Source: Mesorhizobium sp. (lineage in GTDB: Bacteria > Pseudomonadota > Alphaproteobacteria > Rhizobiales > Rhizobiaceae). From it: 64,000 bases of DNA. The position numbers were made by a program, and so were the translations under genes. Positions 24,263 to 42,296 of this stretch are shown in pieces. How positions within the stretch are numbered: the stretch's first letter is position 1; every line of letters begins with the position of its first letter. The DNA lies in assembly GCA_004020545.1 (NCBI GenBank), contig SAQE01000005.1, positions 62,001-126,000 on the forward strand. Reading direction: 5' to 3'. The notes beneath the pieces are model-generated. The model was not told where the DNA came from. It made no database searches and worked only from the letters and a program-made list of their open reading frames with translations.

Positions 24263-24764
24263 CGGGCGCCAGCCGCTTCCCCATGACGCCCCAACCGATC
24301 GCTGGGCTCGGCTATAGTCGCCGGCGCCGGAGCCCGGCGATCGCTCCCACCGAGAATCGTGGTTATTGCCACAACAAGGGGGCGGCATTTTCTGCGATGG
24401 AAATGGCCATGGCAGATGCGCGTGAGTTCGAGGTGATCCATCTACGGTATCATTGGCCATACGGCCGGCTGATCGCCGAGCGTCTGCTGAAGACCTATGG
24501 TGCTTCCGGCAACTTGGCCTGGGCCATGGCCGAGCGCAGCGCGGCTTGATCGACGTCCCAGCGGCGGTGAAGGCGCTGCAGGCACGTGACGGCGGCGCAA
24601 CGCTCGAACGGCCCGAGCAGCTTTGCGGCGCTCGCGCACGCGCCGTCATGCGCTGGCTTCACGGTGGCTCGCACCACCCTCTGAGTATCCCATGACTTCC
24701 CCCCGCAACGAACACAGATCGCGTCATGCAATGCCATCAACATCCATGTTTCAAGTATCATTTA
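24263..24764. other. Gene-poor stretch with a decayed gene fragment
   Basis: About 500 bp between the SDR gene and the hyf-like operon promoter. The only recognisable item is the ECF-sigma fragment at 24561-24620. The small frame at 24411-24549 (MADAREFEVIHLRYHWP...) has no good ribosome-binding site and no family I know. The part from 24700 is clearly more AT-rich than the window and leads into the promoter at 24765. Confidence 0.5.
24561..24620 (+). pseudogene. Remnant of an ECF sigma factor gene (region 2)
   Basis: These 60 bp match 21854-21913 of the intact sigma gene at 49 of 60 positions by hand alignment. Both read AAVKAL..DGG...ERPEQ in translation. There is no start, no continuing homology downstream and no region 4, so this is a decayed duplicate fragment. 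Confidence 0.65.
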
Positions 24765-24792
24765 TTGACGATGAGGCCCTTTTATGTATGCT
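24765..24792 (+). promoter_or_regulatory. Candidate sigma70 promoter of the XRE-hyf operon
   Basis: TTGACG at 24765-24770, 16 bp spacer, TATGCT at 24787-24792, in a locally AT-rich stretch; the expected start point is near 24799, about 40 bp before the XRE start codon. Confidence 0.55.
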
Positions 24793-24837
24793 ACAGCACC
24801 GAGACCTCATATTTCAAACTGACCGAGAGGGTCGTCG

Positions 24838-25143
24838 GTGATAACCGCACCGCAATTGCGCGCCGCCAGATCGCTGCTGGGCATCGATCAGCGCCGGCTT
24901 GCCGAATTGTCCGGCCTGTCGGTGCCGACGATCCAGCGCATGGAAGCCAGCGGTTCGATCATCCGGGGCAACGTCGATTCGCTGATGAAGCTGATCGCGG
25001 CGCTCGAGGTGGCCGGCATCGAACTGATCGGGGAAGGCGCGGTCAGCCAGGGCGGCGGGCGCGGCGTGCGGTTGAAGGCCGGGCTCGGTCCGGCCAAGGC
25101 GCCAGACGCCGCCTATGCCGAGCCTGGCGGGAGCCAGCCGTGA
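24838..25143 (+). CDS. XRE-family helix-turn-helix protein heading the hyf-like operon
   Basis: A 101-residue DNA-binding protein. Residues 5-62 form a Cro/cI-type helix-turn-helix (LRAARSLLGIDQRRLAELSG then SVPTIQRMEASG). A GTG start at 24838 has GAGAGGG at the right distance; no ATG is available. The C-terminal 35 residues are Gly/Ala/Pro-rich. Its TGA overlaps the GTG of hyfB by 4 bp (GTGA), so regulator and complex are made together. It probably controls this operon; the signal is unknown. Confidence 0.8.
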   Translation: MITAPQLRAARSLLGIDQRRLAELSGLSVPTIQRMEASGSIIRGNVDSLMKLIAALEVAGIELIGEGAVSQGGGRGVRLKAGLGPAKAPDAAYAEPGGSQP

Positions 25144-27158
25144 TTTCGACCGTTGCTCTTCTGTTGTGCGGTCCCGCAGCGCTTCTGGGCACGGCCGTCC
25201 TGGCCGGAGCCTTCAGCCGGCGCGCCTCAGCGACGCGTCTGGTCTATGGCGCGGCGCTCGCCATCTCGGCCGCCCTGCTCGTCATCGTCGCAGACCATCT
25301 CATGGGCAATCCCGGCGAGGTGTCCGCCGTCACCTTGCCGCTCGGCCTGCCATGGACCGGCGCCCGGTTCCGTCTCGACGGGCTGTCGGCCTTCTTTCTG
25401 ATCGTCGTCAACCTGGGCGGCGCGGTCACCAGCCTCTACGGCGTTGGCTATGGCCAGCACGAATCGGCGCCGCATCGCGTGCTGCCCTTCTATCCGGCCT
25501 TTCTGGCCGGCATGAACCTTGTCGTGCTGGCCAACGACGCCTTCGCCTTTCTGCTGTCCTGGGAATTCATGTCGCTCGCCTCCTGGGCGCTGGTCATGGC
25601 GCACCACCGCGACGAGGCGAACAGGCGGGCCGCCTATATCTATCTGGTGATGGCAAGCTTCGGCACGCTGGCGCTGCTGCTGGCCTTCGGCCTGCTGGCG
25701 GGGCCGGCAGGAACCTATGCGTTCGACGCCATGCGCACGGTGCAACCCGGCCCGCTCGCCGCCGGCGCGGTGCTCGCGCTGATGCTGCTCGGCGCCGGCT
25801 CCAAGGCCGGCCTCGTGCCGCTGCACGCCTGGCTGCCGCTTGCCCATCCGGCGGCACCAAGCCACGTCTCGGCGCTGATGAGCGGCATCATGACGAAGGT
25901 CGCAATCTACGGCTTCGTCCGCGTCGTGTTCGACCTGCTTGGCGCGCCGGCATGGTGGTCGGGCGTCGCGGTGCTTCTCATCGGCGGCGTTACGGCGGTT
26001 CTGGGCATCCTTCATGCGCTGATGGAAAAGGACCTCAAGCGGCTGCTGGCCTACTCGACCATCGAGAACATCGGCGTCATCTTTGCCAGCCTCGGCCTTG
26101 CGCTTGCCTTCAAGGCGAACGCCATGCCGTCGGCGGCGGCGCTGGCCTTCACCGCGGCGCTATTCCACGTGCTGAACCATTCGTTCTTCAAGAGCCTGCT
26201 GTTTTTCGGCGCCGGCGCCGTGCTCTCGGCGACCGGCGAACGCGACATGGAGAGGCTGGGCGGCCTCATTCATCGCCTGCCGGTGACCAGCTTCGTCTTC
26301 CTCGTCGGCTGCGTCTCGATCTCGGCGCTGCCGCCGTTCAACGGCTTCGCCTCGGAATGGCTGGCCTTCCAGGCCATCTTGCAAAGTCCCGACCTGCCGC
26401 AGTGGGGGCTGAAGGTGATCGTGCCGGCCGTCGGCGGCATGCTGGCGCTGGCTGCGGCGCTGGCCGCGGCTTGCTTCGTGAAGGCATTCGGCATCACTTT
26501 CCTCGGCCGGGCACGATCGGCGGTGGTGGAACAGGCGCATGAGGTCGACCGCTTCTCGCTGGCGGCGATGGCCGTGCTTGCCGTCCTCTGCCTGCTCGCC
26601 GGCCTCCTGCCCGGCTTTGTCATCGACGGCCTGTCGACGGTGACGCTTCCGCTCATCGGTGACCGCATGCCTGTGCAGACGGCGCAGCCCTGGCTGTCGA
26701 TCGTGCCGATCGCCGAGAGCCGCAGCTCCTACAACGGCCTGCTGGTGTTCGTCTTCATCACGATCTCGGCGTCGCTCGCGGCCTTCTTCATCCACCGCTT
26801 CGCCTCGCACGCGCTGCGCCGGGGCCTGGCATGGGGTTGCGGCTTCGACGACGCGGCGCCCGCCGCGCAATATACGGCCGTCAGCTTCGCGCAGCCCATC
26901 CGCCGGGTGTTCGGCGGATTCGCGTTCCGCGCTCGCGAGACGGTGGAAATGCCGGCGCCGGGCACGCTCGACCCGGCACGCATCAAGGTGGACATTCACG
27001 ATGTGGCCTGGGAGACGTTCTACCAGCCGATCGCCGGCGCGATCGATTTCGCCACCGAGCGGCTGAACTACCTGCAGTTCCTGACGATCCGCCGCTATCT
27101 GACGCTGGTCTTCCTCTACCTCGTCATCCTGCTTCTGGTGCTTGCGCTATGGCCATGA
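25140..27158 (+). CDS. hyfB: HyfB-like antiporter-type membrane subunit
   Basis: A 672-residue, roughly 16-helix membrane protein of the NuoL/NuoM/MrpA-type proton-translocating family, closest in organisation to hydrogenase-4 subunit B. The core (about 120-420) includes LLSWEFMSLASWALV, GAGSKAGLVPLHAWLPLAHP and KDLKRLLAYSTIENIGVIFA, which hold the conserved glutamate and lysines of the ion channel. GTG at 25140 overlaps the regulator stop, and the product ends over the hyfC start. It should move H+ or Na+ when the attached redox module works. Confidence 0.88.
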   Translation: MISTVALLLCGPAALLGTAVLAGAFSRRASATRLVYGAALAISAALLVIVADHLMGNPGEVSAVTLPLGLPWTGARFRLDGLSAFFLIVVNLGGAVTSLYGVGYGQHESAPHRVLPFYPAFLAGMNLVVLANDAFAFLLSWEFMSLASWALVMAHHRDEANRRAAYIYLVMASFGTLALLLAFGLLAGPAGTYAFDAMRTVQPGPLAAGAVLALMLLGAGSKAGLVPLHAWLPLAHPAAPSHVSALMSGIMTKVAIYGFVRVVFDLLGAPAWWSGVAVLLIGGVTAVLGILHALMEKDLKRLLAYSTIENIGVIFASLGLALAFKANAMPSAAALAFTAALFHVLNHSFFKSLLFFGAGAVLSATGERDMERLGGLIHRLPVTSFVFLVGCVSISALPPFNGFASEWLAFQAILQSPDLPQWGLKVIVPAVGGMLALAAALAAACFVKAFGITFLGRARSAVVEQAHEVDRFSLAAMAVLAVLCLLAGLLPGFVIDGLSTVTLPLIGDRMPVQTAQPWLSIVPIAESRSSYNGLLVFVFITISASLAAFFIHRFASHALRRGLAWGCGFDDAAPAAQYTAVSFAQPIRRVFGGFAFRARETVEMPAPGTLDPARIKVDIHDVAWETFYQPIAGAIDFATERLNYLQFLTIRRYLTLVFLYLVILLLVLALWP

Positions 27159-28105
27159 TTTTCCAGTTGGCCGTGCAGGGCGCGCAGATGCTGCTGGTGC
27201 TCTTGCTGGCGCCGCTGCTGATCGGCTTCGTGCGCAAGGTGAAGGCAAGGCTGCTGCGCAGGCAAGGCCCGCCGCTGATCCAGCCCTATCGCGATCTCAT
27301 CAGGCTGATGCGCAAGGAGGTCGTGCTGGCCGACAACGCATCCTGGCTGTTCCGCGTCACGCCCTACCTGATCTTTGCCGCCACCTGGGTCGCGGCGGCG
27401 CTCGTTCCGACATTCGCCGCCGGCCTCGAGTTCAGCTGGACCGCCGATCTCATCGTCATCGTGGCGCTGCTCGGCAGCGCGCGCTTCTTCCAGGCGCTGG
27501 CCGGCATGGACGTCGGCACCAGCTTCGGCGGCATCGGCGCCAGCCGCGAAGTGATGATCGCCTCGCTGGCCGAGCCCGCCATGCTGCTCATCGTGTTCAG
27601 CCTGGCGCTCGTCGCCGGCGCCACGCAGCTTTCGACGGTCGCCGCCTTCATGGGCTCGCCCGAAGTCGGATTGCGGGTGTCGCTCGGCATGTCGCTGATC
27701 GCCCTGGTGATGGTGGCGATCGCCGAGAACGCGCGCATACCGGTCGACAATCCGGCCACGCATCTGGAGCTCACCATGGTCCATGAGGCGATGATCCTGG
27801 AATATTCCGGCCGCCATCTGGCGATGATCGAACTCGCCACCTTCCTCAAGCTTCTGCTCTACGTGTCGCTGATCTCCTGCGTCTTCCTGCCCTGGGGACT
27901 GGCAAGCGTCGGGGCGGGACCGAAAGCGCTGGCGATCGGAGCCGCAGCCTATCTCGCCAAGCTCGCGGTGCTTGCCATCCTGCTTGCCGTGTTCGAGACG
28001 GCGGTCGCCAAGATGCGTGTCTTCCGCGTGCCGGACTTCCTGGGCGCGGCGCTGATGCTGGCGCTGCTCGGCACGCTCTTGCTGTTCGTCTCGCGGAGCC
28101 TGTGA
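27149..28105 (+). CDS. hyfC: HyfC/NuoH-like membrane subunit
   Basis: A 318-residue membrane protein with about eight helices, of the NuoH/HycD/HyfC family that anchors the hydrophilic arm to the membrane. Recognisable segments are RRQGPPLIQPYRDLIRLMRK (about 35-54) and the conserved acidic loop ENARIPVDNPATHLELTMVH (about 190-209). The ATG at 27149 overlaps the hyfB end by 10 bp; an alternative ATG at 27155 would give a 4-bp ATGA overlap. Its presence next to antiporter subunits shows a complex I-like, energy-converting layout. Confidence 0.9.
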   Translation: MAMIFQLAVQGAQMLLVLLLAPLLIGFVRKVKARLLRRQGPPLIQPYRDLIRLMRKEVVLADNASWLFRVTPYLIFAATWVAAALVPTFAAGLEFSWTADLIVIVALLGSARFFQALAGMDVGTSFGGIGASREVMIASLAEPAMLLIVFSLALVAGATQLSTVAAFMGSPEVGLRVSLGMSLIALVMVAIAENARIPVDNPATHLELTMVHEAMILEYSGRHLAMIELATFLKLLLYVSLISCVFLPWGLASVGAGPKALAIGAAAYLAKLAVLAILLAVFETAVAKMRVFRVPDFLGAALMLALLGTLLLFVSRSL

Positions 28106-28767
28106 TGAACGGTCTCACCTTCGACATCGCCCACCTGCTTGCCGGCAGCCTGGTGCTGGTCTCCTTCATGATGCTCTATCAGGACCGCCTGTTCGCGCTG
28201 ATCAACGTCTTTGCCCTGCACGCGGTCGTGCTTGCGCTCTCGGTGGCCTGGCAGGCCTATATCCAGGACGCGCACCACCTTTACATCACGGCGGCAATAG
28301 CGCTGGTCTTCAAGGCGATCGTCATCCCCGTCGGGCTGCATCGCATCATCCAGCGGCTCGGCATCCACCGCGACATCGAAACCGCCGTCGGCATCGGCCC
28401 GACCATGCTTGCCGGGATAGGGCTGGTGACGCTGTCCATGGTGCTGATGCTCAGGGTGACGCCCGAGGCCGACCCGCTCGCCCGCGAGGACCTCGCCTTC
28501 GCGCTGTCGATCATATTGCTGGGGCTGTTGGTGATGGTCACAAGGCGCAACGCCGTCAGCCAGGTCGTCGGCTTCATGTCGCTGGAGAACGGCCTGGTGC
28601 TGGCCGCCACCGGCGCCAAGGGCATGCCGCTGGTGGTCGAGATCAGCGTCGCCTTCTCGATCCTGATCGCCTTCATCGTCATCGGCGTCTTCCTGTTCCG
28701 CATCCGCGAGCGGTTCGATTCGGTCGATGTCGGCGCGCTCGACGACTACCGGGGAGAGCGCCAGTGA
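28105..28767 (+). CDS. hyfE: HyfE-like membrane subunit
   Basis: A 220-residue hydrophobic protein with six to seven helices, matching the hydrogenase-4 subunit E family; its second half (about 100-210, including FMSLENGLVLAATGAKGMPLVVE) resembles NuoK, with a conserved membrane glutamate in LENG. Start ATG 28105 overlaps the hyfC stop by one base (TGATG), and the stop overlaps the hyfF GTG by 4 bp. Function inferred: part of the ion-translocating arm. Confidence 0.87.
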   Translation: MNGLTFDIAHLLAGSLVLVSFMMLYQDRLFALINVFALHAVVLALSVAWQAYIQDAHHLYITAAIALVFKAIVIPVGLHRIIQRLGIHRDIETAVGIGPTMLAGIGLVTLSMVLMLRVTPEADPLAREDLAFALSIILLGLLVMVTRRNAVSQVVGFMSLENGLVLAATGAKGMPLVVEISVAFSILIAFIVIGVFLFRIRERFDSVDVGALDDYRGERQ

Positions 28768-30215
28768 CCGCGTTTTCCTTCAATGCCGTCGCCGCCATCC
28801 TTTTGATCCCCGCGGGCGCCGCGGCCATTCTCGCGGCGCTGCCGAACTACAAGATGACCGCGGTCGTGAACGTCGTAGCAAGCCTGCTGACCTTGCTCGC
28901 GGCGCTGTCGCTGTTCATCACCGAGCGGCCGGCGCCAGGGCAATATCTCATCATCGACGACCTCAACATCGTCTTCATCGTGCTCAACACATTCGTCGGC
29001 TTCACCACCGGCGTGTTCAGCGCGTCCTATATCGGGCATGAGCTGGAAACCGGCCGGCTGACCGCGCCGAACCTCCGGTTCTACCACGCGATGTACCAGA
29101 TCATGATGTTCGGCATGAACCTCGCCTTCGTGTCGAACAATATCGGCCTGATGTGGGTCGCGGTGGAGCTCGCCACGCTGACCACCGTGCTGATGGTCGG
29201 CATCTACCGCACCCATGAGGCGCTGGAGGCGGCCTGGAAATATTTCATCCTCGGCAGCGTCGGCATCGCGCTCGCCCTGTTCGGCACCATCCTCGTCTAC
29301 ATGGCCGCACAACCGGTCGTCGGCGAGGGCACCAATGCCATGGTCTGGTCGGTGCTGATCGAAAAGGCGGCGCATTTCGACCCGGCCCTGCTCAGCGTCG
29401 CCTTCATCTTCCTGCTGCTCGGCTATGGAACCAAGGTCGGGCTCGCCCCCTTGCACGCCTGGCTGCCCGATGCGCATGCCGAAGGCCCGACGCCGATCTC
29501 GGCGGTGCTGTCGGGCCTGCTCCTCAACGTCGCGCTCTACGCCGTGCTGCGCTTCAAGCTCTTGCTCGCCGCGAGCCCGGAGGCGATCGGCCCGGGACCG
29601 CTGATGGTCACGATGGGGCTGACCTCGCTCATCTTCGCGGCCTTCATGCTCTATCGCCGCCGCGACATCAAACGGCTCTTCGCCTATTCCTCGATCGAGC
29701 ATATGGGCATCATCGTCTTCGCCTTCGGCATGGGCGGCCCGCTCGCCAACTTCGCCGGCCTGTTGCACATGGTCATGCACAGCCTGACCAAGTCGGCGAT
29801 CTTCTTCGCCGTCGGCCATATCGCGCAGGTGAAGGGCACACAGAAGATCTCCGAGATCAGGGGGCTGACCGAAAGCCACCCCGGACTTGGCTGGGCGCTC
29901 GTGATCGGCGTCGTCGCCATCGCCGGCCTGCCGCCGCTCGGCATCTTCATGAGCGAATTCCTGGTCGTCAGCTCGACTTTCGCCAGGCATCCCTGGCTGG
30001 CGATCCCGCTGGTGTTCGGGCTGCTCATCGCCTTCGGCGCGCTGGTGCTGCGGCTGACCGGCCTCGCCTTCGGCGAGCCGCGCGGCGGCACGGCGCCGGT
30101 CGAGGCGTCCTACGTGCCGATGTATTCGCACCTCGCCCTGGTGTTTGCCGCCGGCATCTATCTGCCGGCGCCGCTGGTCGCGTGGTTCCAGCATGTCGCC
30201 GGTATCCTGGGGTGA
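28764..30215 (+). CDS. hyfF: HyfF-like antiporter-type membrane subunit
   Basis: A 483-residue NuoN/NuoM-type membrane protein with about 14 helices, matching hydrogenase-4 subunit F. VELATLTTVLMVGIYRTHEA, GYGTKVGLAPLHAWLPDAHA and DIKRLFAYSSIEHMGIIVFA contain the channel Glu and Lys residues. GTG at 28764 overlaps hyfE. It is the second antiporter-like subunit; the third one of E. coli hyf (HyfD) has no counterpart here. Confidence 0.9.
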   Translation: MTAFSFNAVAAILLIPAGAAAILAALPNYKMTAVVNVVASLLTLLAALSLFITERPAPGQYLIIDDLNIVFIVLNTFVGFTTGVFSASYIGHELETGRLTAPNLRFYHAMYQIMMFGMNLAFVSNNIGLMWVAVELATLTTVLMVGIYRTHEALEAAWKYFILGSVGIALALFGTILVYMAAQPVVGEGTNAMVWSVLIEKAAHFDPALLSVAFIFLLLGYGTKVGLAPLHAWLPDAHAEGPTPISAVLSGLLLNVALYAVLRFKLLLAASPEAIGPGPLMVTMGLTSLIFAAFMLYRRRDIKRLFAYSSIEHMGIIVFAFGMGGPLANFAGLLHMVMHSLTKSAIFFAVGHIAQVKGTQKISEIRGLTESHPGLGWALVIGVVAIAGLPPLGIFMSEFLVVSSTFARHPWLAIPLVFGLLIAFGALVLRLTGLAFGEPRGGTAPVEASYVPMYSHLALVFAAGIYLPAPLVAWFQHVAGILG

Positions 30216-30235
30216 GGCGCATGGTGAGGAAAAGC

Positions 30236-31759
30236 ATGCCCGCACTCACAGATCTCATCGAGGCCGGCCGCCCGGCCGAGCATCACGCCCCGTGGCGACG
30301 CGCCGTGGTGGCCCCGAAAGTCTGGAACCTTGCCGTCGAACAGCTCGCCGGCGGCCGCTGGAGCCTGCTCGGCCTGTGGGGAGAGCCGGACAGGGTGCAC
30401 ATGGCGCTTCTCGACGAGGCGCGGGACATCGGCGTGATCAGCCTGGACTGCCGCGGCGGCCGCTACCCGTCGGTCGGCCAGTACCATCCGCCGGCCCTGA
30501 GGTTGGAGCGCGCCGCGGCCGATCTCTTCGGACTGGCGCCGCAAGGGCTTCCCGACACCCGCCGCTGGCTCGACCATGGTCAATGGGGCATCAGCCATCC
30601 GCTGGCGGCGCAGCCCGGGAAGCCGGCGGCCAGGTCCTCCTATCGGTTCCTCGCGGCAGAGGGCGACAGCCTCCACCAGATCGCGGTCGGACCCGTGCAT
30701 GCCGGCATCATCGAGCCGGGACATTTCCGCTTCACGGCAAGCGGCGAGACGGTGGTACGGCTGGAGGAGCGCCTGGGCTATGTGCACAAGGGCATCGAAG
30801 GCCTGATGGCCGGCGCGCCGGTCGATCGCGCGGCAAGGCTCGCGGGCAGGACCTCCGGAGACAGCACGGTCGCTTATTCGCTCGCCTTTGCCCGTGCCGT
30901 GGAGGCGGCCCTCGGCGTTGCGCCACCGCCGCGCGCAATGTGGCTGCGGGCGCTGATGGCCGAGCTGGAGCGCCTCGCCAACCACCTCGGCGATATCGGC
31001 GCCATCTGCAACGATGCCGCCTTCGCGCTGATGCACGCGCATTGCGGCGTGCTGCGCGAACGCGTGCTGCGCGCCGCCGATGCGGCCTTCGGCCACCGCC
31101 TGATGCGCGACCGCGTCGTGCCCGGGGGCGTTGCGGGCGATCTCGGCGAGGCGGGCACGAGCGCCATCCGATCGCTGGTCGCGGAGATCCGGCAACGCTT
31201 TCCGCATCTGGTCGAGCTCTACGACAACACCGCGTCGCTGCAGGACCGGACGGTGGCGACCGGCCGGCTCAAGGTCGAGCTTGCCCGGCAATATGCCGCC
31301 GGCGGCTATGTCGGGCGCGCCTCCGGCCGCGATTTCGATGCGCGGCGCAACGCGGTCTACGCACCCTATGACGAACTCGCCTTCGATGTGCCGGTGCTGC
31401 AGGAGGGCGACGTCAACGCACGCGTCTGGATCCGCGTCCGTGAGGTCGAGCAGAGCCTGTCGCTGGTCGAGCAGATGCTGGGGCGGCTGCCGGCCGGCTC
31501 GATCCGCGCCGATATCGCCGCGGCGGACAATGTTGCAGACGGGCCGCGCGAGGGCATGGCGCTGGTCGAAGGTTTTCGCGGCGACATCCTGGCCTGGCTG
31601 CGCATCGGCGAGGGCGGCTTGATCGAGCGCTGCCACCTGCGCGACCCCTCATGGTTCCAGTGGCCGCTCCTGGAAGCGGCCATCGAGGGCAACATCATCG
31701 CCGACTTCCCGCTCTGCAACAAATCGTTCAACTGCTCCTATTCCGGCCATGATCTCTAA
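30236..31759 (+). CDS. hyfG: HyfG-like large subunit lacking the [NiFe] cysteine ligands
   Basis: A 507-residue protein that combines an N-terminal NuoC-like domain (about 15-125) with a NuoD/HycE-like large-subunit domain, the arrangement of HyfG and HycE. At the site where active hydrogenases have RxCGxC it reads R205-T-S-G-D-S210, so both cysteines are serine. At the C-terminus, where DPCxxC is expected, it reads NCSYSGHDL with one displaced Cys500 and Gly504 instead of the last ligand. A [NiFe] centre therefore cannot form in the known way. I chose ATG 30236 because AGGA precedes it; ATG 30221 is possible. No maturation (hyp) genes or formate dehydrogenase lie in the window. The best class is an energy-converting-hydrogenase-related subunit with unknown substrate. 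Confidence 0.88.
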   Translation: MPALTDLIEAGRPAEHHAPWRRAVVAPKVWNLAVEQLAGGRWSLLGLWGEPDRVHMALLDEARDIGVISLDCRGGRYPSVGQYHPPALRLERAAADLFGLAPQGLPDTRRWLDHGQWGISHPLAAQPGKPAARSSYRFLAAEGDSLHQIAVGPVHAGIIEPGHFRFTASGETVVRLEERLGYVHKGIEGLMAGAPVDRAARLAGRTSGDSTVAYSLAFARAVEAALGVAPPPRAMWLRALMAELERLANHLGDIGAICNDAAFALMHAHCGVLRERVLRAADAAFGHRLMRDRVVPGGVAGDLGEAGTSAIRSLVAEIRQRFPHLVELYDNTASLQDRTVATGRLKVELARQYAAGGYVGRASGRDFDARRNAVYAPYDELAFDVPVLQEGDVNARVWIRVREVEQSLSLVEQMLGRLPAGSIRADIAAADNVADGPREGMALVEGFRGDILAWLRIGEGGLIERCHLRDPSWFQWPLLEAAIEGNIIADFPLCNKSFNCSYSGHDL

Positions 31760-31780
31760 GCTGGTCGAAGGCACCCCGTC

Positions 31781-32320
31781 ATGCGCAAGCTCCTCTTCGA
31801 AAGCCTGATCCGCCCGCCATTGACCGAGCGCGCGCCGCAGGTGAGCGACGCCGCAGTCGACGAGCTGGCGCGCGCGCTTGACAGCGTGGCCCGCAAGAGG
31901 CTCGGCCGGAGCCTGTCGATCCGGGCGATCGACGCCGGCTCCTGCAATGGCTGCGAGCTCGAAATGCACGCGCTCAACAACGCCTTCTACGACATCGAGC
32001 GCTTCGGCTTCCGCTTCGTCGCCTCGCCCCGCCACGCCGACGTGCTGATGGTCACCGGGCCGGTCACCAAGAACATGCGCGAGGCGCTGAAGCGGACCTG
32101 GGACGCGACGCCCAACCCGAAATGGGTGGTCGCGCTGGGCGACTGCGCAAAGGACGGCGGCTGCTTCGCCGGCAGCTACGCGGTCGTCGGCGGCGTATCG
32201 GACGTCGTGCCCGTCGACCTGCACATTCCAGGCTGCCCGCCGCCGCCGATCGATATCCTGAAAGGGTTGATCGCGCTGCTCGAGGGCGCGAACGGAACGG
32301 TTGGCGCTTCCCTGGGCTGA
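31781..32320 (+). CDS. hyfI: HyfI/NuoB-like [4Fe-4S] subunit
   Basis: A 179-residue protein of the NuoB/HycG/HyfI family that carries the cluster next to the quinone or NiFe pocket. Cluster ligands are visible: C55-N-G-C58, C122 (ALGDCAKDGGC) and C152 (IPGCPPPP). It is the last gene of the operon, 21 bp after hyfG. No 2x[4Fe-4S] subunit like HyfH/NuoI or HyfA accompanies it, so how electrons reach this cluster is open. The stop faces the nosX stop 40 bp away, with no clear terminator between. Confidence 0.9.
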   Translation: MRKLLFESLIRPPLTERAPQVSDAAVDELARALDSVARKRLGRSLSIRAIDAGSCNGCELEMHALNNAFYDIERFGFRFVASPRHADVLMVTGPVTKNMREALKRTWDATPNPKWVVALGDCAKDGGCFAGSYAVVGGVSDVVPVDLHIPGCPPPPIDILKGLIALLEGANGTVGASLG

Positions 32321-32360: not shown

Positions 32361-33413
32361 TCAGGCGCTGTGCTCTATCATCGATCCGTCCATCAAGACG
32401 AAGCAGGCCCGCGTTGCTCCGACCTCCTTGAGGACACAAACGGCACGCTCCACAGGCATGACGGAAAAGGCGGTCGAAAGCGCGTCCGCGCAGGTCGCGG
32501 CCGGCGCGACGACCGAAACGCTGAGATAGCGGCCCGCGCACAGCCCCGTCGCGGGATCGAAGATATGATTGAACCGCCCCGCTGCATCGAAATCGGTACC
32601 GTAGCCGCCTGACGTGGCGACGGCCTGGTTGTCGAGAGCAAGCGTCGCAAGCAGGCGATCCTCGGCACGCGGATCCTTTATCCCGATCGACCAGGGCCGA
32701 CCCGCCGGATGAGCGTCGAGCGCACGCGTCTCCCCCATATCGACCAAGGTGTGTGTGACCCCGCGAGCGCGCAGAAGCTCGGCGACGCGATCGGTGATGT
32801 AGCCTTGCGCGATGCCGTTCAGGGTGAGCGCCATGCCGGATTGCGCGAACGCCACTTTCCCGGCGTCGACGGTCACGCGCTGGTAGCCGCATTTGGCCCT
32901 GGCGCTTCCGATGGCGGCCGGTGGCGGACCATTCGGATCGGCGTCAGCCATGCCGAAGTGCTTGGCATAGAGCGCCCAGAGCGGCTGCACGGTCGGGTCG
33001 AAAGCGCCACCGGTTGCGCGGGCATAGCGCGCGCTCGTCGCCAGAAGCTCGACGAGCTCCTGCGGCGGATCGGCCAGCTCGCCCTCGCGGTTCAATCGGG
33101 AAAGCGCGGAGGCCTCGTCGTAGAGGCTGAACACGCGCTCCAGCCGACGCACCTCGGCGAGCGCATCTGCGATCATGCGCCCGGCCTCGGCGGCATCGGG
33201 ATGATATATACGCAGCGAGGCGTCAGCGCCGAGCGCGACACCGCGCCATTCGTGGAACAGCGGTGACGCCCGGCCCGGTCGAGCAAAACCTGCCCCAAGC
33301 GCCGCAAGGCCCGCCACCGAGCCGCTGATGCGGATGAAGCGGCGCCGGGTCATCGGGCCGGCCGGCCCGCCGTCCGGTTTCATTGCACCGTGCATTGCCG
33401 AAGGCTCTGTCAT
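32361..33413 (-). CDS. nosX: FAD:protein FMN transferase of the nos cluster (NosX)
   Basis: NosX belongs to the ApbE family and transfers FMN covalently to a threonine of NosR in the periplasm. The 350-residue product has a twin-arginine signal (TRRRFIRISG, arginines at about 23-25; export region to about 50), and the ApbE segments ALTLNGIAQGYITDRVAELL and VDMGETRALDAHPAGRPWSI. ATG 33413 overlaps the nosL stop (ATGA); internal ATGs at residues 11 and 21 would also keep the signal. It is the last gene of nosRZDFYLX. Confidence 0.93.
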   Translation of the reverse strand: MTEPSAMHGAMKPDGGPAGPMTRRRFIRISGSVAGLAALGAGFARPGRASPLFHEWRGVALGADASLRIYHPDAAEAGRMIADALAEVRRLERVFSLYDEASALSRLNREGELADPPQELVELLATSARYARATGGAFDPTVQPLWALYAKHFGMADADPNGPPPAAIGSARAKCGYQRVTVDAGKVAFAQSGMALTLNGIAQGYITDRVAELLRARGVTHTLVDMGETRALDAHPAGRPWSIGIKDPRAEDRLLATLALDNQAVATSGGYGTDFDAAGRFNHIFDPATGLCAGRYLSVSVVAPAATCADALSTAFSVMPVERAVCVLKEVGATRACFVLMDGSMIEHSA

Positions 33414-33988
33414 TGCTTCACCGCGGGTCCGGGCGATACGGCTTCGCCGGCCGGAACATCGGCGGCGACATCGCTCTCGTCGCTCTCCAGGATGTATTTC
33501 TCCGGGATCTCGTTGAAGCGTACGACCGTTCCGCCATGCGCCGCCGTGAACGACCGGGCGGCCTTTTCATCGGAGAAAGGCACGGCGTCCTTGCCGCCCA
33601 TGCCGGCGTTGTAGTCGCTGCCGATAGCGTACCAGGCGTCGTGCGCCTCAACCCAGGCTCCTGCCTCGGGGCGATCCCAATTCCTGGCCTTCGCCATGTC
33701 GTTGACGTAGATGGCGACGACGTCCTTCGGCTCCCCGGGGAGCATCGAGAAGGCGACGGCGTCGCGAACGGACGAGAACCAGACCGGCTCGGATTTGCCG
33801 GCACGGAAGGCCTGCCCCTTCGGGCCGCCATGTTCGAGCAGGCCCATCGAACAGAAATAGGCGACCGAAGTGGCTGTCGGCTCCTGCGGCGGCGGCTTGG
33901 TCTGGCCGGCGATCTCCTGATTGCAGCCGGCAAGCAGGACGGAGAGGACAACGGCGACCAGGGCGCCAAGAACCGTTGCGCGCATCAT
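33410..33988 (-). CDS. nosL: NosL copper-binding lipoprotein
   Basis: NosL is an outer-facing lipoprotein that carries Cu(I) to nitrous oxide reductase. The 192-residue product has a lipoprotein signal ending in LLAGC (Cys22) and the copper motif YFCSMG (Cys46, Met48). ATG 33986-33988 overlaps the nosY stop as ATGA; a second ATG directly follows. AAGGAG lies just upstream. Glu/Asp-rich C-terminus. Confidence 0.94.
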   Translation of the reverse strand: MMRATVLGALVAVVLSVLLAGCNQEIAGQTKPPPQEPTATSVAYFCSMGLLEHGGPKGQAFRAGKSEPVWFSSVRDAVAFSMLPGEPKDVVAIYVNDMAKARNWDRPEAGAWVEAHDAWYAIGSDYNAGMGGKDAVPFSDEKAARSFTAAHGGTVVRFNEIPEKYILESDESDVAADVPAGEAVSPGPAVKQ

Positions 33989-34815
33989 GGCTCCTTCCTT
34001 GAAAAGACGAAGGCGGCGAGAGCGAGGGGAACCGCCACCCATACCGCCAGCGCCGTGAGCAGCACGGCGCGACCGAACTGCATTTGCTCGGCAAGCCCGG
34101 CCATCCCGGCGAACAGGCTGGTCTTCGACAACCCGGCAAGATTGAGGAGCCGGAAGATGTCGGCGGGATCGAGAAGCAGCAGCCAGTTGAAGGCAGCGGC
34201 GCTGATCGTCCTGCCCTGGTCCGCAACCAGCAGGCCGAGCAGCGCCATGTCGTAGAGAAGGACCAGAACCAGCCAGATGCCGATGGCAAGGCCTGCCGCG
34301 GTCGCGCGCTCGCGCACGGTCGCGCTGATCAAGTATCCGAGCGCGACGAAGACCGCGCCGAGCAGAACCGACGAGCCGATCATCCGCGCAAAGCTGCCGA
34401 GGCTGTCGGCATCGAACTCGCCGGCCGCAAGCGCGAGCGCCGCTCCGGCGGCACCGTAGCCGAGCACGGTCGCCACCGTCAGGATCGAGAGGTGCCCGAG
34501 GAACTTGCCGAAGAGGATCTGCCAGCGCGAGAGCGGATAGGAAAGAAGAAGAAGCAGCGTGCCGCGATCCCGTTCCCCGACGATTGCGTCGTGGGACAGG
34601 AGGAGCGCGATCAGCGGGACCAGGAAAATCGTCAGGCTCGACAGGCTGACGACCGTAACTTCGAGCGGACTTGCGCCGACCACGCCAGTGGGAGCGCTGC
34701 CGAGAAACGCAAGCGTCAGCGCCAGGCCGGCCATCAGCAGAAGGGCGCCAAGGGCCCAGCGGTTGCGCAGGCCGTCGCGTATTTCGCGACCGGCAATCGT
34801 TGCTATCGCGTTCAT
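33985..34815 (-). CDS. nosY: NosY ABC transporter permease
   Basis: NosY is the membrane subunit of the NosFY ABC transporter that, with NosD, matures the copper-sulfur site of NosZ. The 276-residue protein has six hydrophobic segments and a charged stretch LLLSHDAIVGERDRGTLLLL after the second, typical of the family. Start MNAIATIAGREIRDGLRNRW at 34815 overlaps the nosF stop by 4 bp; the longer upstream frame is only a continuation through nosF. Confidence 0.93.
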   Translation of the reverse strand: MNAIATIAGREIRDGLRNRWALGALLLMAGLALTLAFLGSAPTGVVGASPLEVTVVSLSSLTIFLVPLIALLLSHDAIVGERDRGTLLLLLSYPLSRWQILFGKFLGHLSILTVATVLGYGAAGAALALAAGEFDADSLGSFARMIGSSVLLGAVFVALGYLISATVRERATAAGLAIGIWLVLVLLYDMALLGLLVADQGRTISAAAFNWLLLLDPADIFRLLNLAGLSKTSLFAGMAGLAEQMQFGRAVLLTALAVWVAVPLALAAFVFSRKEP

Positions 34816-35720
34816 TCCGCAGCCTCCCGTGTAAGCTCGTCGCATAGATCGACCAATGTCGGCGGCATCACTTCGATGTCGGAGACGCCTTGCAGCAGCG
34901 AGACGCTGCGGATCGCCTCGATCTTGCCGTCGTCGGCGCAGGTGAGCTCGAAGCGCAGATCGTCGAGCCACTGCACGCTGCGCCGGGCGGTGAATTCCCG
35001 CGCCGCATTCCCGTCGACGACGTGCACGCGTATGCGAAGCGGCAGGTCCGCCAGGCGGCGGAGTTCGGGAAGCGCGCCGCATGCGACCATGCGGCCGGCC
35101 TTCATGATGGCGATGCGGTCGGCCTGCTCGATGTCGCTGAGCGCATGCGAGGAAAGCAGCAGCGTCGCGCCGGCGTCGCGCAACTGCGCCATGACGTCGT
35201 AGAACATCTGGCGCGACTCGATGTCGAGGCCGGTTGTCGGCTCGTCAAGGAAGAGGACGCGCGGCTCGCCGAGAAGCGCCTGCGCCAATCCGAGGCGCTG
35301 GCGCATGCCCTTCGAATAGGTGCCGACGCGGCGGCGCGCGGCAGCAGCGAGCCCGACGCGTTCCAGTAGCTGGTCGGCGACGCCGAGCGGCACTTGCTTG
35401 AGACGCGCGTAGAAACGCAGCACTTCGCGGCCGGTCATGGCCGGAGAGAAGGCGACGTTCTCGGGCAGGAAGCCGATCCTGCGCCGGAATGCCATGGCCT
35501 GGCGCCCCGCCGGGTTCTCGCCGAGCAGCGTGATGCGGCCGGCGGTCGGCGTGAGCAGGCCGAGGGCCATCTTCACCAGCGTGCTCTTGCCGGCTCCGTT
35601 GTGCCCGACGATGGCAACGCACTCGCCGGGCGCAACCGAGAGATCCACGTCGCGCACGACATAGGCATCCCCGTATCGCTTCGACACGCCTTGCATGAAG
35701 ATCGTCGGCGACATGGTCAT
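34812..35720 (-). CDS. nosF: NosF ABC transporter ATPase
   Basis: A 302-residue ATP-binding subunit paired with NosY. Walker A is GHNGAGKST (about 39-47), the signature loop YSKGMRQRLG, and Walker B VLFLDEPTTG followed by the switch His in LLSSHALSD. ATG 35718-35720 overlaps the nosD stop (ATGA); a second ATG two codons later is an alternative. ATP hydrolysis here drives sulfur or copper-site supply to NosZ in current models of the family. Confidence 0.95.
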   Translation of the reverse strand: MTMSPTIFMQGVSKRYGDAYVVRDVDLSVAPGECVAIVGHNGAGKSTLVKMALGLLTPTAGRITLLGENPAGRQAMAFRRRIGFLPENVAFSPAMTGREVLRFYARLKQVPLGVADQLLERVGLAAAARRRVGTYSKGMRQRLGLAQALLGEPRVLFLDEPTTGLDIESRQMFYDVMAQLRDAGATLLLSSHALSDIEQADRIAIMKAGRMVACGALPELRRLADLPLRIRVHVVDGNAAREFTARRSVQWLDDLRFELTCADDGKIEAIRSVSLLQGVSDIEVMPPTLVDLCDELTREAAE

Positions 35721-36991
35721 GGCTTCACCTCCTGCGCAGGCGGGATGGGCGCCATCAGCGGCGCGCTGTCGATGACGCCGCCCGGATGGAGCGCGGGGAA
35801 TTCCGCTTGAGCCCAGCGGATGACCTGCACGGCCGGGCTGTTGATGAGGAGCTTGGCCGTCGGATATGTCCACACGACCTTGTCGAAGATGTCGTTCGGC
35901 CGGTAGGCGGTATCGGCGATGCCGTCGCCATTCAGGTCGAACGCCGGATTGTCGCTCCAGTAATTGCCGCGCCCGTCCGCCGACCAGTCGAGCGACCGTG
36001 TGCCCACGTAAACGACCTGCGAGCGGTTATGGACAAAGGCATTTCCGGTCATCCGGTTGCGCTCCGAGCCCGCGGTGAAATGGATGCCGACAGCGCAATC
36101 CTCGAACCGGTTGTCGGCAAACAGGTTCTTGTTGGCGTTGTAGATGAAGACGCACTGGTCGCTTCGCCGCACCACATTGTCTTTGATGTCCGCGTCGTTG
36201 GCGTAGTTGAGCAATAGGCCGTGATCGCCATCGTCTTCCGACAGGTTGCGGCGGATTACCAGGCGGCTCGAATACATGATGACGAAGCCGTCATGATTGC
36301 CGCGCGAGACGTTGTCGGCGACCTCGCTGTCGTTCGTGTACATGTAGTGGATGGCGAAGCGGACGTTCTCGATACGGTTGCCGCGGAAGACGTTGTTGCG
36401 GCTGGCATTGGTGAAGATGCCGTCGCGTCCGCCCGTGATGTAATTGCCGATCACCTGCGCCCCCGGCGCGTTCCAGACATAGACGCCGTTGCCGCGCTCG
36501 TTGGTCCTGAGATCGGTCCGCCCGACGATGCGGTTGTTCCGCACGATCGCGTTGGCGGCGCCGTGAACATAGACGCCGACCAGGCTATTCTCGATCCGGC
36601 TGTCCTCAACGATTGCGCCCGCCGCGCTGTCTTCGAGGAAGACCGCCGCGTCCATGGGATCGTCGATGCCCGAATTGCGTATCGTGAGGCCGCGCATGAC
36701 GACGTTCGGGGCAACCACCTCGATGGTGCGACCCCGGCCCTGCCCGTCGAGCACGGCGCCGGGCTCGGCCTCGATGGTGAGAGCGTGGTCGATCCGGATC
36801 GGGCCCTGGTGCAAGCCGGCGGCGAGTCTGAGCGTATCGCCGGAATGCGACGCGGCGACCGCCTGCCGAAGACCGTCACCCCCCGCGGGGACGGCGAGGG
36901 TTTCCGCCCGCCCCGCCCCTGGGAAGAGGAAGGCGCAGGCGGCGACGAGGGCCGCCGCAACTGCGCTCCTGTTATGCGGCTGCCGTATCAT
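35717..36991 (-). CDS. nosD: NosD periplasmic copper-site assembly protein
   Basis: A 424-residue periplasmic protein of the CASH-domain, right-handed parallel beta-helix type. A Sec signal covers about residues 1-29 (cleaved near GRA|ETLAV). Repeating N-x-x-x-x-N turns such as [30 protein letters not shown] and [10 protein letters not shown] run through about 95-300. NosD acts with NosFY to build the CuZ site. The ATG at 36991 overlaps the nosZ stop as ATGA; the open frame upstream is a continuation through nosZ. Confidence 0.95.
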
Positions 36992-38910
36992 GCCGGCTGC
37001 GGCTCCACGATCATGCGCCCGGCCATTTCCATGTGCAGGGCATGGCAGAACCACTGGCAATAGTACCAGTGGACACCGGGGCGGTCGGCGACGAAGGTTA
37101 CGGACGAGGTCGCCTGCGGCCCGATCTCCATCACGACGCCGTGGCGCACCATGGTGAAGCCGTGGGTCAGGTCCTCGACGTCGTCCATGTTGGTCACGGT
37201 GATGGTGACCTCGTCACCCTGCTTCACCGTGAACTTGTCGAGACTGAAGGCCGGCGCGACGGAGTGCATGTAGACGCGCACCTTGTTGCCGTCGCGGATG
37301 ACGTTGGCGGCTTCCTCGAGCTTGACGCCGTCCTTCGCCGCCTGCTGCCGCGCTTCCTCCCACATCGGGTCGTCGCGCTTCCACACGATCGCCGGCCTGA
37401 CCTTCGAGCGATGGACCAGACAGATGTCGTGCGGCTCCGCGAAGCTCGGCCCGTCATGGACCAGGCGCATCTCGTCGCCCGAGATATCGATCAGCTGGTC
37501 GTTCTCCGGATGCAGCGGGCCCACCGGCAGGAAGCGGTCCTTGGAGAACTTGTTGAGCGACATCAGCCACTTGCCGTCCGCCTCCTTGGTCTCGCCCATG
37601 GAGGTGTGGTTGTGACCCGGCTGGTAGTGAACGTCGAGTTTCTGGATGATCGGGTCGACCTTGGCGCCGCCGTAAGCCTGGATCGCCTTGTCGATGCTCC
37701 ACTTGACGACCTGGCTGTCGAGGAACAGCGTGGTGTAGGCGTTGCCCTTGCCGTCGAATGCCGTGTGCAGCGGCCCGAGGCCCAGTTCAGGCTCGGCGAC
37801 GACGACGTCGCGCGGCTTGATCTTGTCGTCGAACAGGTCGTCGAAGCGGCGCACGTCGAGAAGCGTCACCGTCGGCGAGAGCTTGCCGGCGATCGCGAGA
37901 TGGATGCCGTCGGGCGCCGTGTTGCAGCCGTGGGGATTGTTGCCGGCCGGGACGTAGCGCGTGTAGCGCGAGCCGTGCCGCCCGTCGACCACCGGCACGC
38001 CGTTGATCTCCTTGTAGTCGCCTTTCTTGACCGCATCCTCGATGCGCTTGAGGTTGAAGATCACCACCCAGTCGCGGTCCGCGGACGTCATGTCGGCGAG
38101 CGTCACGCCCCGCTCCGAATTGTAGCAGGTCGAGAACGCGTACTTGCCCTGGTAGTCGGCGTCGGTGTTGTCGAGATTGCCGTCGACCAGGACCTGCCAG
38201 GCGATCTTCATGGTATCGCCGTCGATCGCGGTGAAGACCGACCAATACTGCTTGGGATCGTCGAGGACCTTGCCGTCGTTCGGGATAGGGATGATGTGCT
38301 CGCTGTTGGCGAACACGTAGCCGGTCCGCGGATACTTCTGCAGGCGCAGCCCGTGAATGTCAGACGCGTTCGGAATCTCGATGATCTTGTCGCACTTCAT
38401 CACGTCGCAACGGATGCGCGCGACGCGGCAATTGGCCTTGTCGTTGACGAACAGATAGCGCCCGTCATAGGTGCCGTCGGTGAAGGACATATGCGGGTGA
38501 TGCAGGTCGCCGTTGGGGTAGACGCCGCCGCGCTTGGCAAGGAACGCCTGCGTGGTCGGCATCAGGCCTTCCGTCATGATCTTGCGGCTCTCGTTGGTGA
38601 TCCCCCAGCCGGTGGCGCTGCAGCGGTTGAAGACCGGAATGCGCGAGAGTTCACGCATGGAAGGCAGCCCGATGACGCGCACCTCGCCCGACTGGCCGCT
38701 CGAGCTGAAGCCGTAATATTCGTCGAGATCGCCCGGACGGATCTCGCTGGTCGCCTCCTTGGCATGGGCGGGCCTGGTGAACCCGGCAACGCCGACGGCT
38801 CCGCCACCGGCCGCGCTGGCGAGACCCGCCAGTATGGCTGCCTTGCCGCTTCCGGTCAGAAGCTTGCGACGGCTTACTCCGGTTTCCGCCGACCTATCAT
38901 CATCCTTCAT
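36988..38910 (-). CDS. nosZ: Nitrous oxide reductase
   Basis: NosZ reduces N2O to N2 in the periplasm, the last step of denitrification. The 640-residue enzyme has a twin-arginine signal (SRRKLLTG, Arg14-Arg15; cleavage near AHA|KEAT), so it is a clade I enzyme. The seven-bladed propeller supplies CuZ histidines (DLHHPHMS, the EHIIP loop, HNHTSMGE, and others). The C-terminal CuA cupredoxin domain has Cys618, Trp620, Cys622, His626 and Met629 ([12 protein letters not shown]). AAGGAG precedes the ATG, which overlaps the nosR stop. Confidence 0.98.
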
Positions 38911-41216: not shown

Positions 41217-41301
41217 TTGCGCGGCCGGCTGTCTGCACCAAAAGCCCGATCGCTTGTTGATCGAACGCGCGTTACCCTTAGACGATCGCGCCAGCCGCTC
41301 T

Positions 41302-41315
41302 TTGATCTGCAACAA
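41302..41315. promoter_or_regulatory. FNR/FixK-like box between nosR and the ferritin-like gene
   Basis: TTGAT-CTGC-AACAA differs from the TTGAT-N4-ATCAA consensus at one base in the right half. Its centre (41308.5) is about 41-42 bp from plausible start points on both strands: a TAAGGG -10 near 41275-41280 for nosR and CATATT near 41339-41344 for the rightward gene. That is the class II activator position in both directions. Confidence 0.55.
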
Positions 41316-41372
41316 ACTCAAATGGCATCGGTCGATGTCATATTGGCGCGCATTCCTCCAGGAGGCGCTCCC

Positions 41373-42296
41373 ATGAAGCGGCTGAGTGAAGAACCCAATA
41401 TGCAGTTGCGCGATGTTCCGCAGCTCCTTGGCCTGGCGACGGCCATGGAGGAAACCACGGCACAGCGCTACCAAAGGCTCGCTGCCCGCATGGAAAGGCT
41501 GAACGAGCGTGAGGTTGCCGGAACATTCAGCGCGCTTGTCGAGGAGCAGCGCGACCATCTCGAAGAAATCGCCCGCCGCTCCATTGAGTTGACGGGCGCG
41601 CCGCCGCCGGCACTGGCCGATCCGCGCGGGCTGCCTTCCGAAATCTCTCGATCATGGGACGAAGCGGAGGCCAGCGCGCTACTCACCCCGTACCGAGCCC
41701 TCGGCGTTGCCGTGGATAATGAAATGCTGGCTTTCGCCTTCTATTCCTATGTCGCAGCGCAAAGCGACGATGCGACGGTCCGGGCGACCGCGGAGTGGCT
41801 CGCCGGAAAGGCGCTCGATCACGCGGCGTTGCTGCGCGAGGAACGGCGTCGCGCCTATCGGCGCGAAGGCGCCAGGCACGCCCGCGACGGGAGGCCAATG
41901 CTGGATGCCTCGTCGCTGCCGGAGTTCGTGCTACAGAGCCGACGGCTGGAGTCGCGTGCCGCGGTCTTCCACCGACGGATTGCTTCATGGCTTGCCGCCT
42001 TGGGTGAGGATGCTGCCTCGAAAACGATTACCGAGGTTGCCGAGCGGGAGCGGGCAGCCGGGCTTGAGGCCGCTGACGGAACTGTCGAAGCAGCGAGAGC
42101 GGAGCTTGCGCAAGCCGCCAAGCTGTTGCCGCTTCTACGCGCCGCGCTCGCCGAAGCCGAACGGCTGCATCAGGCCTATCTCGATCTCGCCGACCGCACG
42201 CGCGACGAACAGGTGCTGGCCGCAGCCCAACGGGCGGCGGATCGAACCCTGCAGAGCCTGGCCGCCATCGCAGCGCGGCTGCAGGCGTTCGGCTGA
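41373..42296 (+). CDS. Ferritin-like/rubrerythrin-related protein divergent from nosR
   Basis: A 307-residue soluble protein. Residues 12-165 read as a four-helix ferritin-like bundle with candidate metal-ligand pairs: AMEETTAQRYQ (Glu), EEQRDHLEEI (ExxxH spacing), VDNEMLAFAFY and ALDHAALLREE. This is the helix order of the rubrerythrin/ferritin-like superfamily, although the ExxH motifs are imperfect. Residues 215-305 are Ala/Glu/Arg-rich and probably coiled coil. GGAGG precedes the ATG. It shares a 156-bp intergenic region and an FNR-like box with nosR, so I infer a role tied to N2O respiration, possibly peroxide, oxygen or metal protection; none is proven. Confidence 0.75.
   Translation: MKRLSEEPNMQLRDVPQLLGLATAMEETTAQRYQRLAARMERLNEREVAGTFSALVEEQRDHLEEIARRSIELTGAPPPALADPRGLPSEISRSWDEAEASALLTPYRALGVAVDNEMLAFAFYSYVAAQSDDATVRATAEWLAGKALDHAALLREERRRAYRREGARHARDGRPMLDASSLPEFVLQSRRLESRAAVFHRRIASWLAALGEDAASKTITEVAERERAAGLEAADGTVEAARAELAQAAKLLPLLRAALAEAERLHQAYLDLADRTRDEQVLAAAQRAADRTLQSLAAIAARLQAFG

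Follow-up and report, generated by a model that had tools for sequence, protein, structure and literature searches.

The window analysed here, a stretch of 64,000 nucleotides from Mesorhizobium sp. (GenBank assembly GCA_004020545.1, contig SAQE01000005.1, positions 62,001 to 126,000), contains one tight operon of an XRE-family regulator gene and hyfB, hyfC, hyfE, hyfF, hyfG, and hyfI, located at window positions 24838-32320 on the + strand. Judged from its sequence, the operon is a real, intact, and selected member of the known energy-converting-hydrogenase-related (Ehr) class. As to function, the reading favoured here, at slightly less than even confidence, is that the six-subunit Ehr-type complex acts as a redox-driven ion pump, with a soluble carrier that docks on HyfI as its electron source. 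The operon is of interest because Ehr complexes have been placed between hydrogenases and complex I.

The packing of the seven genes with overlaps, claimed in an earlier note made from the sequence alone (hereafter the original prediction), was borne out by open reading frame coordinates and family matches. The genes and two motifs of HyfG are listed below in window coordinates.

24838..25143, + strand: XRE/HTH_3 regulator, the first gene of the operon, with a 4-base overlap with hyfB
25140..27158, + strand: hyfB, antiporter-like (NuoL/MrpA-like) subunit, GTG start; PF00361 (Proton_antipo_M) at 182.5 bits, PRK06521 (hydrogenase 4 subunit B) over cut-off
27149..28105, + strand: hyfC, NuoH-like subunit; PF00146 (NADHdh)
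28102..28767, + strand: hyfE, membrane subunit with a NuoK-like part; PRK11492 (hydrogenase 4 membrane subunit) at 86.8 bits and PF00420, both below cut-off
28764..30215, + strand: hyfF, antiporter-like subunit; PRK06458 (hydrogenase 4 subunit F) over cut-off, Proton_antipo_M
30236..31759, + strand: hyfG, fused NuoC/NuoD-like large subunit without NiFe ligands; Complex1_49kDa and Complex1_30kDa, HycE match with E 1.9e-57
30848..30865, + strand: RTSGDS, HyfG residues 205-210, at the RxCGxC position (alignment on HycE RVCGIC)
31718..31756, + strand: NKSFNCSYSGHDL, the C-terminal signature of HyfG, at the DPCxxC position (HycE alignment and locus comparison)
31781..32320, + strand: hyfI, NuoB-like small subunit; PF01058 (Oxidored_q6), HycG match with E 3e-38

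The Ehr assignment, also part of the original prediction, was upheld by the lost Ni-Fe motifs, the cluster content, and placement in a separate clade. The large subunit is group 4 hydrogenase-like and has no Ni-Fe cysteine motifs, and the antiporter-like, NuoH-like, and HyfE-like membrane subunits are encoded in one cluster with the NuoB-like subunit. Residues 71-507 of HyfG were aligned with Escherichia coli HycE, and the test for ligand motifs was negative for both RxCGxC and DPCxxC. As had been predicted, RTSGDS fell on RVCGIC, and NCSYSG, the first part of NCSYSGHDL (499-507, numbered from the start at 30236), fell without gaps on DPCYSC. The four Ni-Fe cysteines of [NiFe] hydrogenases are replaced by S207, S210, S501, and G504, and the ligands are gone. 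The last residue of HyfG stands in the column of what we take to be the final residue before hydrogenase processing. Its end point was identical in 37/37 distant loci and 80/80 named loci (the best 80 of 570 relatives in a contig scan), with no C-terminal propeptide; in three true hydrogenase loci (L198-L200), the large subunit has an additional C-terminal tail.

Conservation in HyfG was scored in 48 rows (the window, ten named Rhizobiales, and the 37 distant loci), with the three hydrogenase rows kept separate. D209, K496, S497, N499, G504, and D506 were kept in all 48 rows, R205, N495, and Y502 in 47, S207 in 46, S501 in 44, and S210 in 40. S497 and D506 were common to both groups, whereas D209, K496, N499, and G504 were unlike the hydrogenase rows. 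The C-terminal signature of the family is NKSxNxSYxGxDL. A cysteine at position 207 was found in one of 81 named rows and one of 48 wide rows. The possibility that four cysteines elsewhere replace the ligands, raised in the original prediction, was tested with five other cysteines that are near-invariant in rhizobial HyfG (258, 270, 466, 494, and 500). In the wide family, they were kept in 38, 23, 30, 31, and 35 of the 48 rows, respectively; they are not family-wide and are therefore ruled out as obligatory metal ligands. A working [NiFe] hydrogenase with atypical ligands would account for the overall similarity to HycE, but its probability is close to negligible: the ligand positions are without cysteines, the five other cysteines are not family-wide, a propeptide is lacking, and HypD had no match anywhere in the Mesorhizobium genome. 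The predicted absence of hyp genes thus holds for HypD; no search was made for the remaining Hyp proteins. Likewise, no PF00374 match over cut-off was obtained genome-wide, the sole match being HyfG itself, below cut-off.

The predicted fold of HyfG had HycE (7z0s_E) as its top Foldseek match, with a TM score of 0.80. The quinone-head positions of complex I (49-kDa subunit, Tyr108 and His59) correspond to G208 and I159 of HyfG in the HycE-search alignment, and Tyr and His are not kept. Another genome of the genus (G042, locus L025) encodes a different HyfG-like protein (32% identity) with the C-terminal end NEASFGLTIAGCDR, also without DPCxxC, which possibly represents another Ehr type.

The proximal 4Fe-4S cluster ligands of HyfI (C55, C58, C122, and C152) are present, as predicted, together with C128. 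They were near-invariant in the wide family rows: C55 and C58 in 46/46, C122 in 45/45, and C152 in 44/45. The membrane arm was similarly conserved. In HyfB, E142 was kept in 43/43, K222 in 42/43, K253 in 41/43, and E406 in 43/44 rows; in HyfC, E193, D200, and E207 in 45/45, and E213, E218, and E283 in 46/46; in HyfE, K71, E162, and E180 in 47/47; and in HyfF, E135 in 48/48, and K224, K343, and E398 in 47/48. These ionizable residues, which we take to have an ion-pump role, are mostly identical in the two or three hydrogenase rows.

HyfA, HyfD, and HyfH analogues are absent from the locus, in agreement with the original prediction, and the loss of ferredoxin subunits extends across the sampled family. 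When open frames of the loci were scanned for the CxxCxxCxxxC motif, no separate ferredoxin-like gene was found inside the operon in any of the 37 distant loci, and no credible 4Fe-4S gene inside it among the best 80 of 570 relatives. Motif frames overlapping hyfE in L167 (110 residues), and core genes in another frame in L070 (78 residues) and L091 (74 residues), were taken as spurious; in L186, two ferredoxin-motif genes lie 3 kb downstream of the operon. Each of the three hydrogenase clusters had two ferredoxin-like genes inside, with another nearby in L198 and L200. The scan supports the missing ferredoxin subunits as a family trait across the sample. A genome-wide HyfH query of the Mesorhizobium genome gave three weak matches only, of which the strongest (E 2.9e-12) falls within the complex I genes on contig C160; HyfA was not searched genome-wide. 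Contig C77 carries a second NuoD-like gene (G000:C77:24298-25134), which is 32% identical to HyfG; the identity of the C160 complex I copy is 26%. A NuoI-like match lies on the opposite strand at a distance of 5 kb, and the gene perhaps belongs to another complex I.

The complex occurs in numerous soil bacteria, and the best 80 of 570 HyfG relatives were mainly from Mesorhizobium, Bradyrhizobium, and Rhizobium. The BCEFGI set was complete and in order in 72 of these 80 named loci, the other eight starting or stopping inside the operon at a contig end, and in 70 of these 72 the XRE gene immediately preceded hyfB. Among the distant loci, 32 of 37 were complete and in order; in the remainder, the operon was cut by contig ends (L173, L188, and L191), hyfI was upstream on the opposite strand (L176), or the operon was cut before hyfC and lacked hyfI after hyfG (L174). 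HyfG matches were obtained in 24/289 sampled genomes of the class and 73/398 of the phylum, with at most 5 and 3 first-look candidates scored per genome, respectively. Ten of the 73 were far weaker (E 1.2e-75 to 7e-69), and the three retrieved from these (L198-L200) all had the hydrogenase C-terminal motif; the other 63 genomes are Ehr by score, one of them (G507) a fragment.

Plasmid records with a match numbered 61: Rhizobium 31, Azospirillum 8, Cupriavidus 6, Burkholderia 4, Paraburkholderia 4, Rhodococcus 2, and the rest singly named. The family is also present on a plasmid (pRL11) of the laboratory rhizobium Rhizobium johnstonii 3841, and a HyfG relative (46% identity) is encoded on replicon NC_007974 of Cupriavidus metallidurans CH34. 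One Rhodococcus copy was examined: it comprises six genes, the NuoB-like gene first, and shows the same C-terminal signature. In the HyfG tree, the family formed one clade of 51 rows (support 99/97) apart from three hydrogenase and eight NuoD-like rows; several rows on long branches, L025, L027, Rhodococcus, and L197 among them, are unsurely placed, and the published Geobacter, Nitrospira, and Sulfobacillus Ehr were left out. Median ratios of nonsynonymous to synonymous substitution rates (dN/dS) ranged from 0.036 (HyfE) to 0.158 (HyfB), with a maximum of 1.2 in one HyfB comparison, and indicate that all six subunits are under purifying selection. The relatives in the best 80 of 570 loci and the median of 0.13 for HyfG (22 comparisons) point to more than a chance occurrence.

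For the favoured redox pump, we infer the following path, including its carrier, substrate, ion, and direction of electron flow. A soluble low-potential, ferredoxin-like carrier would dock straight on HyfI, at the HyfH/NuoI site, and electrons would pass from it to the only 4Fe-4S cluster of HyfI, which is hydrogenase-like. A small non-metal substrate in the vacated NiFe cavity of HyfG would then take up the electrons and become reduced. By the ligand-motif alignment, the putative cavity lining comprises R205, S207, D209, S210, N495, K496, S497, N499, Y502, G504, and D506. The charge change would be passed on along the HyfC acidic path and so reach the ion channels of HyfE, HyfF, and HyfB. Electron transfer is favoured because the cluster ligands of HyfI are retained across the family, and such retention would be costly if no electrons moved. 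The absence of ferredoxin genes inside an otherwise intact operon fits a soluble carrier in their place. The near-invariant ionizable residues of all four membrane subunits, the strictly conserved residues that HyfG has at the ligand motifs in place of those of hydrogenases, and the purifying selection on every subunit also speak for the pump. A more far-reaching version is possible but doubtful: an additional type of reaction within the complex I superfamily, in which a minimal six-subunit pump with a soluble carrier on HyfI would act on a novel non-metal substrate, bound in what was once the NiFe cavity by R205-x-S207-G-D209 and NKSxNxSYxGxDL.

Three results weigh against the redox pump. No electron-input gene generally linked to the operon, and no general carrier or substrate candidate, was found when the neighbours of the named and distant loci were clustered. 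The HyfG model is of low confidence in the cavity region, with predicted local distance difference test values below 50 at 126-183 and 485-507; therefore, cavity geometry was not used. The third concerns evolutionary rates, which were compared in ten Rhizobiales genomes having both Ehr and complex I (each subunit found in 8-10 of them; pairs non-independent). In complex I, NuoD and NuoB diverge less than NuoH, NuoL, NuoM, and NuoN (median ratios NuoD/NuoM 0.60 and NuoB/NuoM 0.23). In Ehr, this was inverted, HyfG and HyfI evolving faster than HyfE and HyfF: the median ratios were 1.78 for HyfG/HyfF and 4.46 for HyfG/HyfE (above 1 in 45/45 pairs), 1.67 for HyfI/HyfF and 4.64 for HyfI/HyfE (28/28 pairs), and 1.40 for HyfG/HyfC (above 1 in 28/36 pairs). 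HyfE was the slowest of the six subunits within Rhizobiales, and HyfE, HyfF, and HyfC were the slowest three. Such an inversion is also compatible with a membrane arm that is the essential part of the complex.

The same rates speak for a redox-silent or proton-motive-force-linked cation/proton antiporter, in which the peripheral arm would be a structural plug and HyfB/HyfF with HyfC/HyfE would do the work. The lack of a recognised 4Fe-4S input subunit inside the operon and the replacement of both quinone-head positions point the same way. However, the cluster cysteines of HyfI are retained, and at the ligand motifs HyfG shows a conserved signature of its own. Moreover, antiporter-like HyfB evolves as fast as HyfG (median HyfG/HyfB 0.99, above 1 in 21/45 pairs), and the inversion fades phylum-wide (mean identities 0.49 for HyfG, 0.57 for HyfI, 0.57 for HyfF, 0.54 for HyfC, 0.50 for HyfE, and 0.48 for HyfB). 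In the sole hydrogenase pair (L199/L200), HyfG and HyfI were more alike than HyfB, HyfC, HyfE, and HyfF. On balance, the antiporter is unlikely. The original prediction had offered either an ion pump or an antiporter without electron entry; the conserved HyfI ligands weaken the latter half, and the pump is the half preferred here.

A reverse-driven enzyme is less probable again. It would spend proton-motive force on pushing electrons uphill to a low-potential carrier via HyfI, while the HyfG site oxidized a reduced metabolite. Its anatomy would be the same as that of the redox pump, nothing fixes the direction, and the named hosts are mostly aerobes or facultative; on the other hand, no metabolic gene is generally linked to the operon.

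Another possibility is that the operon encodes the membrane part of a complex that oxidizes formate (FDH-Ehr), a published proposal for other Ehr lineages. Such a complex is proposed for Margulisbacteria and Saganbacteria (PMC6349859), subunits of the Geobacter Ehr (GSU0739-0745) are more abundant with formate (PMC7894505), and hyfBCEFGI co-occurs with Fdh-H in vent Epsilonproteobacteria (PMC3958643). The original prediction had formate dehydrogenase absent, which is right for the locus and wrong for the genome, where a TIGR01591 match over cut-off is present on contig C128. Nevertheless, the link subunits HyfA and HyfH are missing, and 27 of the 63 Ehr genomes had no TIGR01591 match (E <= 1e-100), so formate dehydrogenase was rejected as a generally obligatory partner. 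It was found in 36/63 Ehr and 208/325 other genomes, i.e., with no association (Fisher p 0.32), one or two first-look candidates being scored per genome and some genomes being incomplete, including one Ehr fragment. An FDH-Ehr complex is thus improbable for this operon.

The neighbourhood survey for a missing electron-input protein, suggested in the original prediction, leaves its description of the redox partner as unknown apt. The repeated neighbour families were mainly accessory genes and regulators, the latter being a second XRE copy in Rhizobiales and, judged by eye, genes of helix-turn-helix and ribbon-helix-helix-like type in distant loci. The only repeated carrier-type neighbours were flavoproteins, found in 4/37 distant loci and representing three different enzymes: Si-specific NAD(P) transhydrogenase in L186 (11051-12454, starting 6 bases downstream of hyfI on the same strand) and L192 (on the opposite strand, at a distance of 2.7 kb), mercury reductase in L194, and lipoamide dehydrogenase in L161. 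The transhydrogenase was rejected as a general partner, as among 126 sequences searched only L192 had a close relative and none of the other 122 had one over half the length; the L186 enzyme is at most a local electron partner.

A gene with an S-adenosylmethionine (SAM) fold, methyltransferase/spermine-synthase-like, recurs by the operon (L093:12598-13404, L050:3703-4308, and L223:1483-2316). Relatives of the Bradyrhizobium gene were found in 25/126 sequences, downstream in Bradyrhizobium and upstream and divergent in Mesorhizobium, with a spermine-synthase-like gene near a Burkholderia copy. A DUF1275/YoaK membrane-protein gene also recurs (L057:2492-3334, L103:3716-4336, and L223:2672-3436), being near the operon in 13/126 sequences from Mesorhizobium, Rhizobium, Phyllobacterium, and Burkholderia. 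Within the genus, strong YoaK matches were found in 6/61 genomes, all six with Ehr (non-adjacent in G037), and the SAM-fold gene in 5/61, four with Ehr. One sub-clade may explain both co-occurrences. Neither gene was found in the window genome.

Compared with E. coli hydrogenase-4 and formate hydrogenlyase (Hyf and Hyc), the complex has homologous B, C, E, F, G, and I subunits, the best solved match being 7z0s HycE and HycG, but lacks the NiFe ligands, the propeptide, HyfA, HyfD, and HyfH at the locus, and a HypD match in the genome. With respiratory complex I, it shares the HyfG fold, the homology of HyfI and HyfC, and presumably the pump residues; it differs in the hydrogenase-like CxxC arrangement of HyfI, in having no N-module and no NuoI at the locus, and in the lost quinone-head Tyr and His. 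The archaeal MBH and MBS (Mbx) complexes have group-4-related large and small subunits in common with it (matches to 6cfw and 6u8y, the latter also in Foldseek). They contain a ferredoxin-accepting 2[4Fe-4S] subunit, and the cavity motif of HyfG differs from that of MBH in the alignment.

A 2013 article by Marreiros reportedly presents Ehr complexes, in its title, as the missing link between hydrogenases and complex I. Published Ehr clusters have a homologous subunit set, with same-clade placement checked for Cupriavidus only; the present operon differs in being XRE-led and in Rhizobiales. In the literature, hyfBCEFGI of Cupriavidus (metallidurans/necator) was called incomplete (PMC2864759), and that of Acidithiobacillus ferrooxidans was non-hydrogenase by HydDB (PMC7735108), a database that leaves out Ehr as a homologue not metabolizing H2 (PMC5037454). 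A hyf-like operon was described in Nitrospira (PMC5596200) and vent Epsilonproteobacteria (PMC3958643), six-gene clusters without Ni-Fe motifs in Sulfobacillus (PMC4378227), Ehr homologues in mycobacteria (PMC6728331), and Ehr with lost Ni-Fe motifs in Nitrospirales (PMC12342949). The function was called unknown in the papers on Sulfobacillus, mycobacteria, and Nitrospirales, as well as in one on comammox Nitrospira (PMC10284858). No rhizobial work on the operon was found in the openly accessible literature with the search terms used. In the available portions of the Ehr literature, no description was met of the NKSxNxSYxGxDL signature, the loss of the quinone Tyr and His, the rate inversion in Rhizobiales, or a family-wide ferredoxin scan. 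The family is large and the seven-gene unit compact, so its function is open to simple deletion, and the invariant residues are exact sites for mutation.

A nos cluster adjoins the operon on the - strand (window 32361-41558; nosR, nosZ, nosD, an ABC ATPase gene, a permease gene, nosL, and an ApbE-family, nosX-like gene). A link to N2O reduction was rejected, as nosZ over cut-off was found in 6/21 Ehr and 6/40 other genomes of the genus (Fisher p 0.31). The two loci are close in G000 and G002 and far apart or on separate contigs in G011, G037, and G028; the G007 assembly is in too many fragments to show their distance. Regulation through a strict FNR/FixK box was rejected, the box being present in 2/106 upstream regions vs. 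7/565 in the background. NifA-type pairs were found in 10/106 regions vs. 17/565, and RpoN sites in 2 vs. 1, the distant-locus regions (700 bases) being longer than the background windows and related loci non-independent. No inverted repeat was found upstream of the operon. Inspection by eye showed, in several of nine regions, an A/T-rich element upstream of the XRE gene (window 24757-24776) that includes the half-sites ATCA and TTGA and may be an operator.

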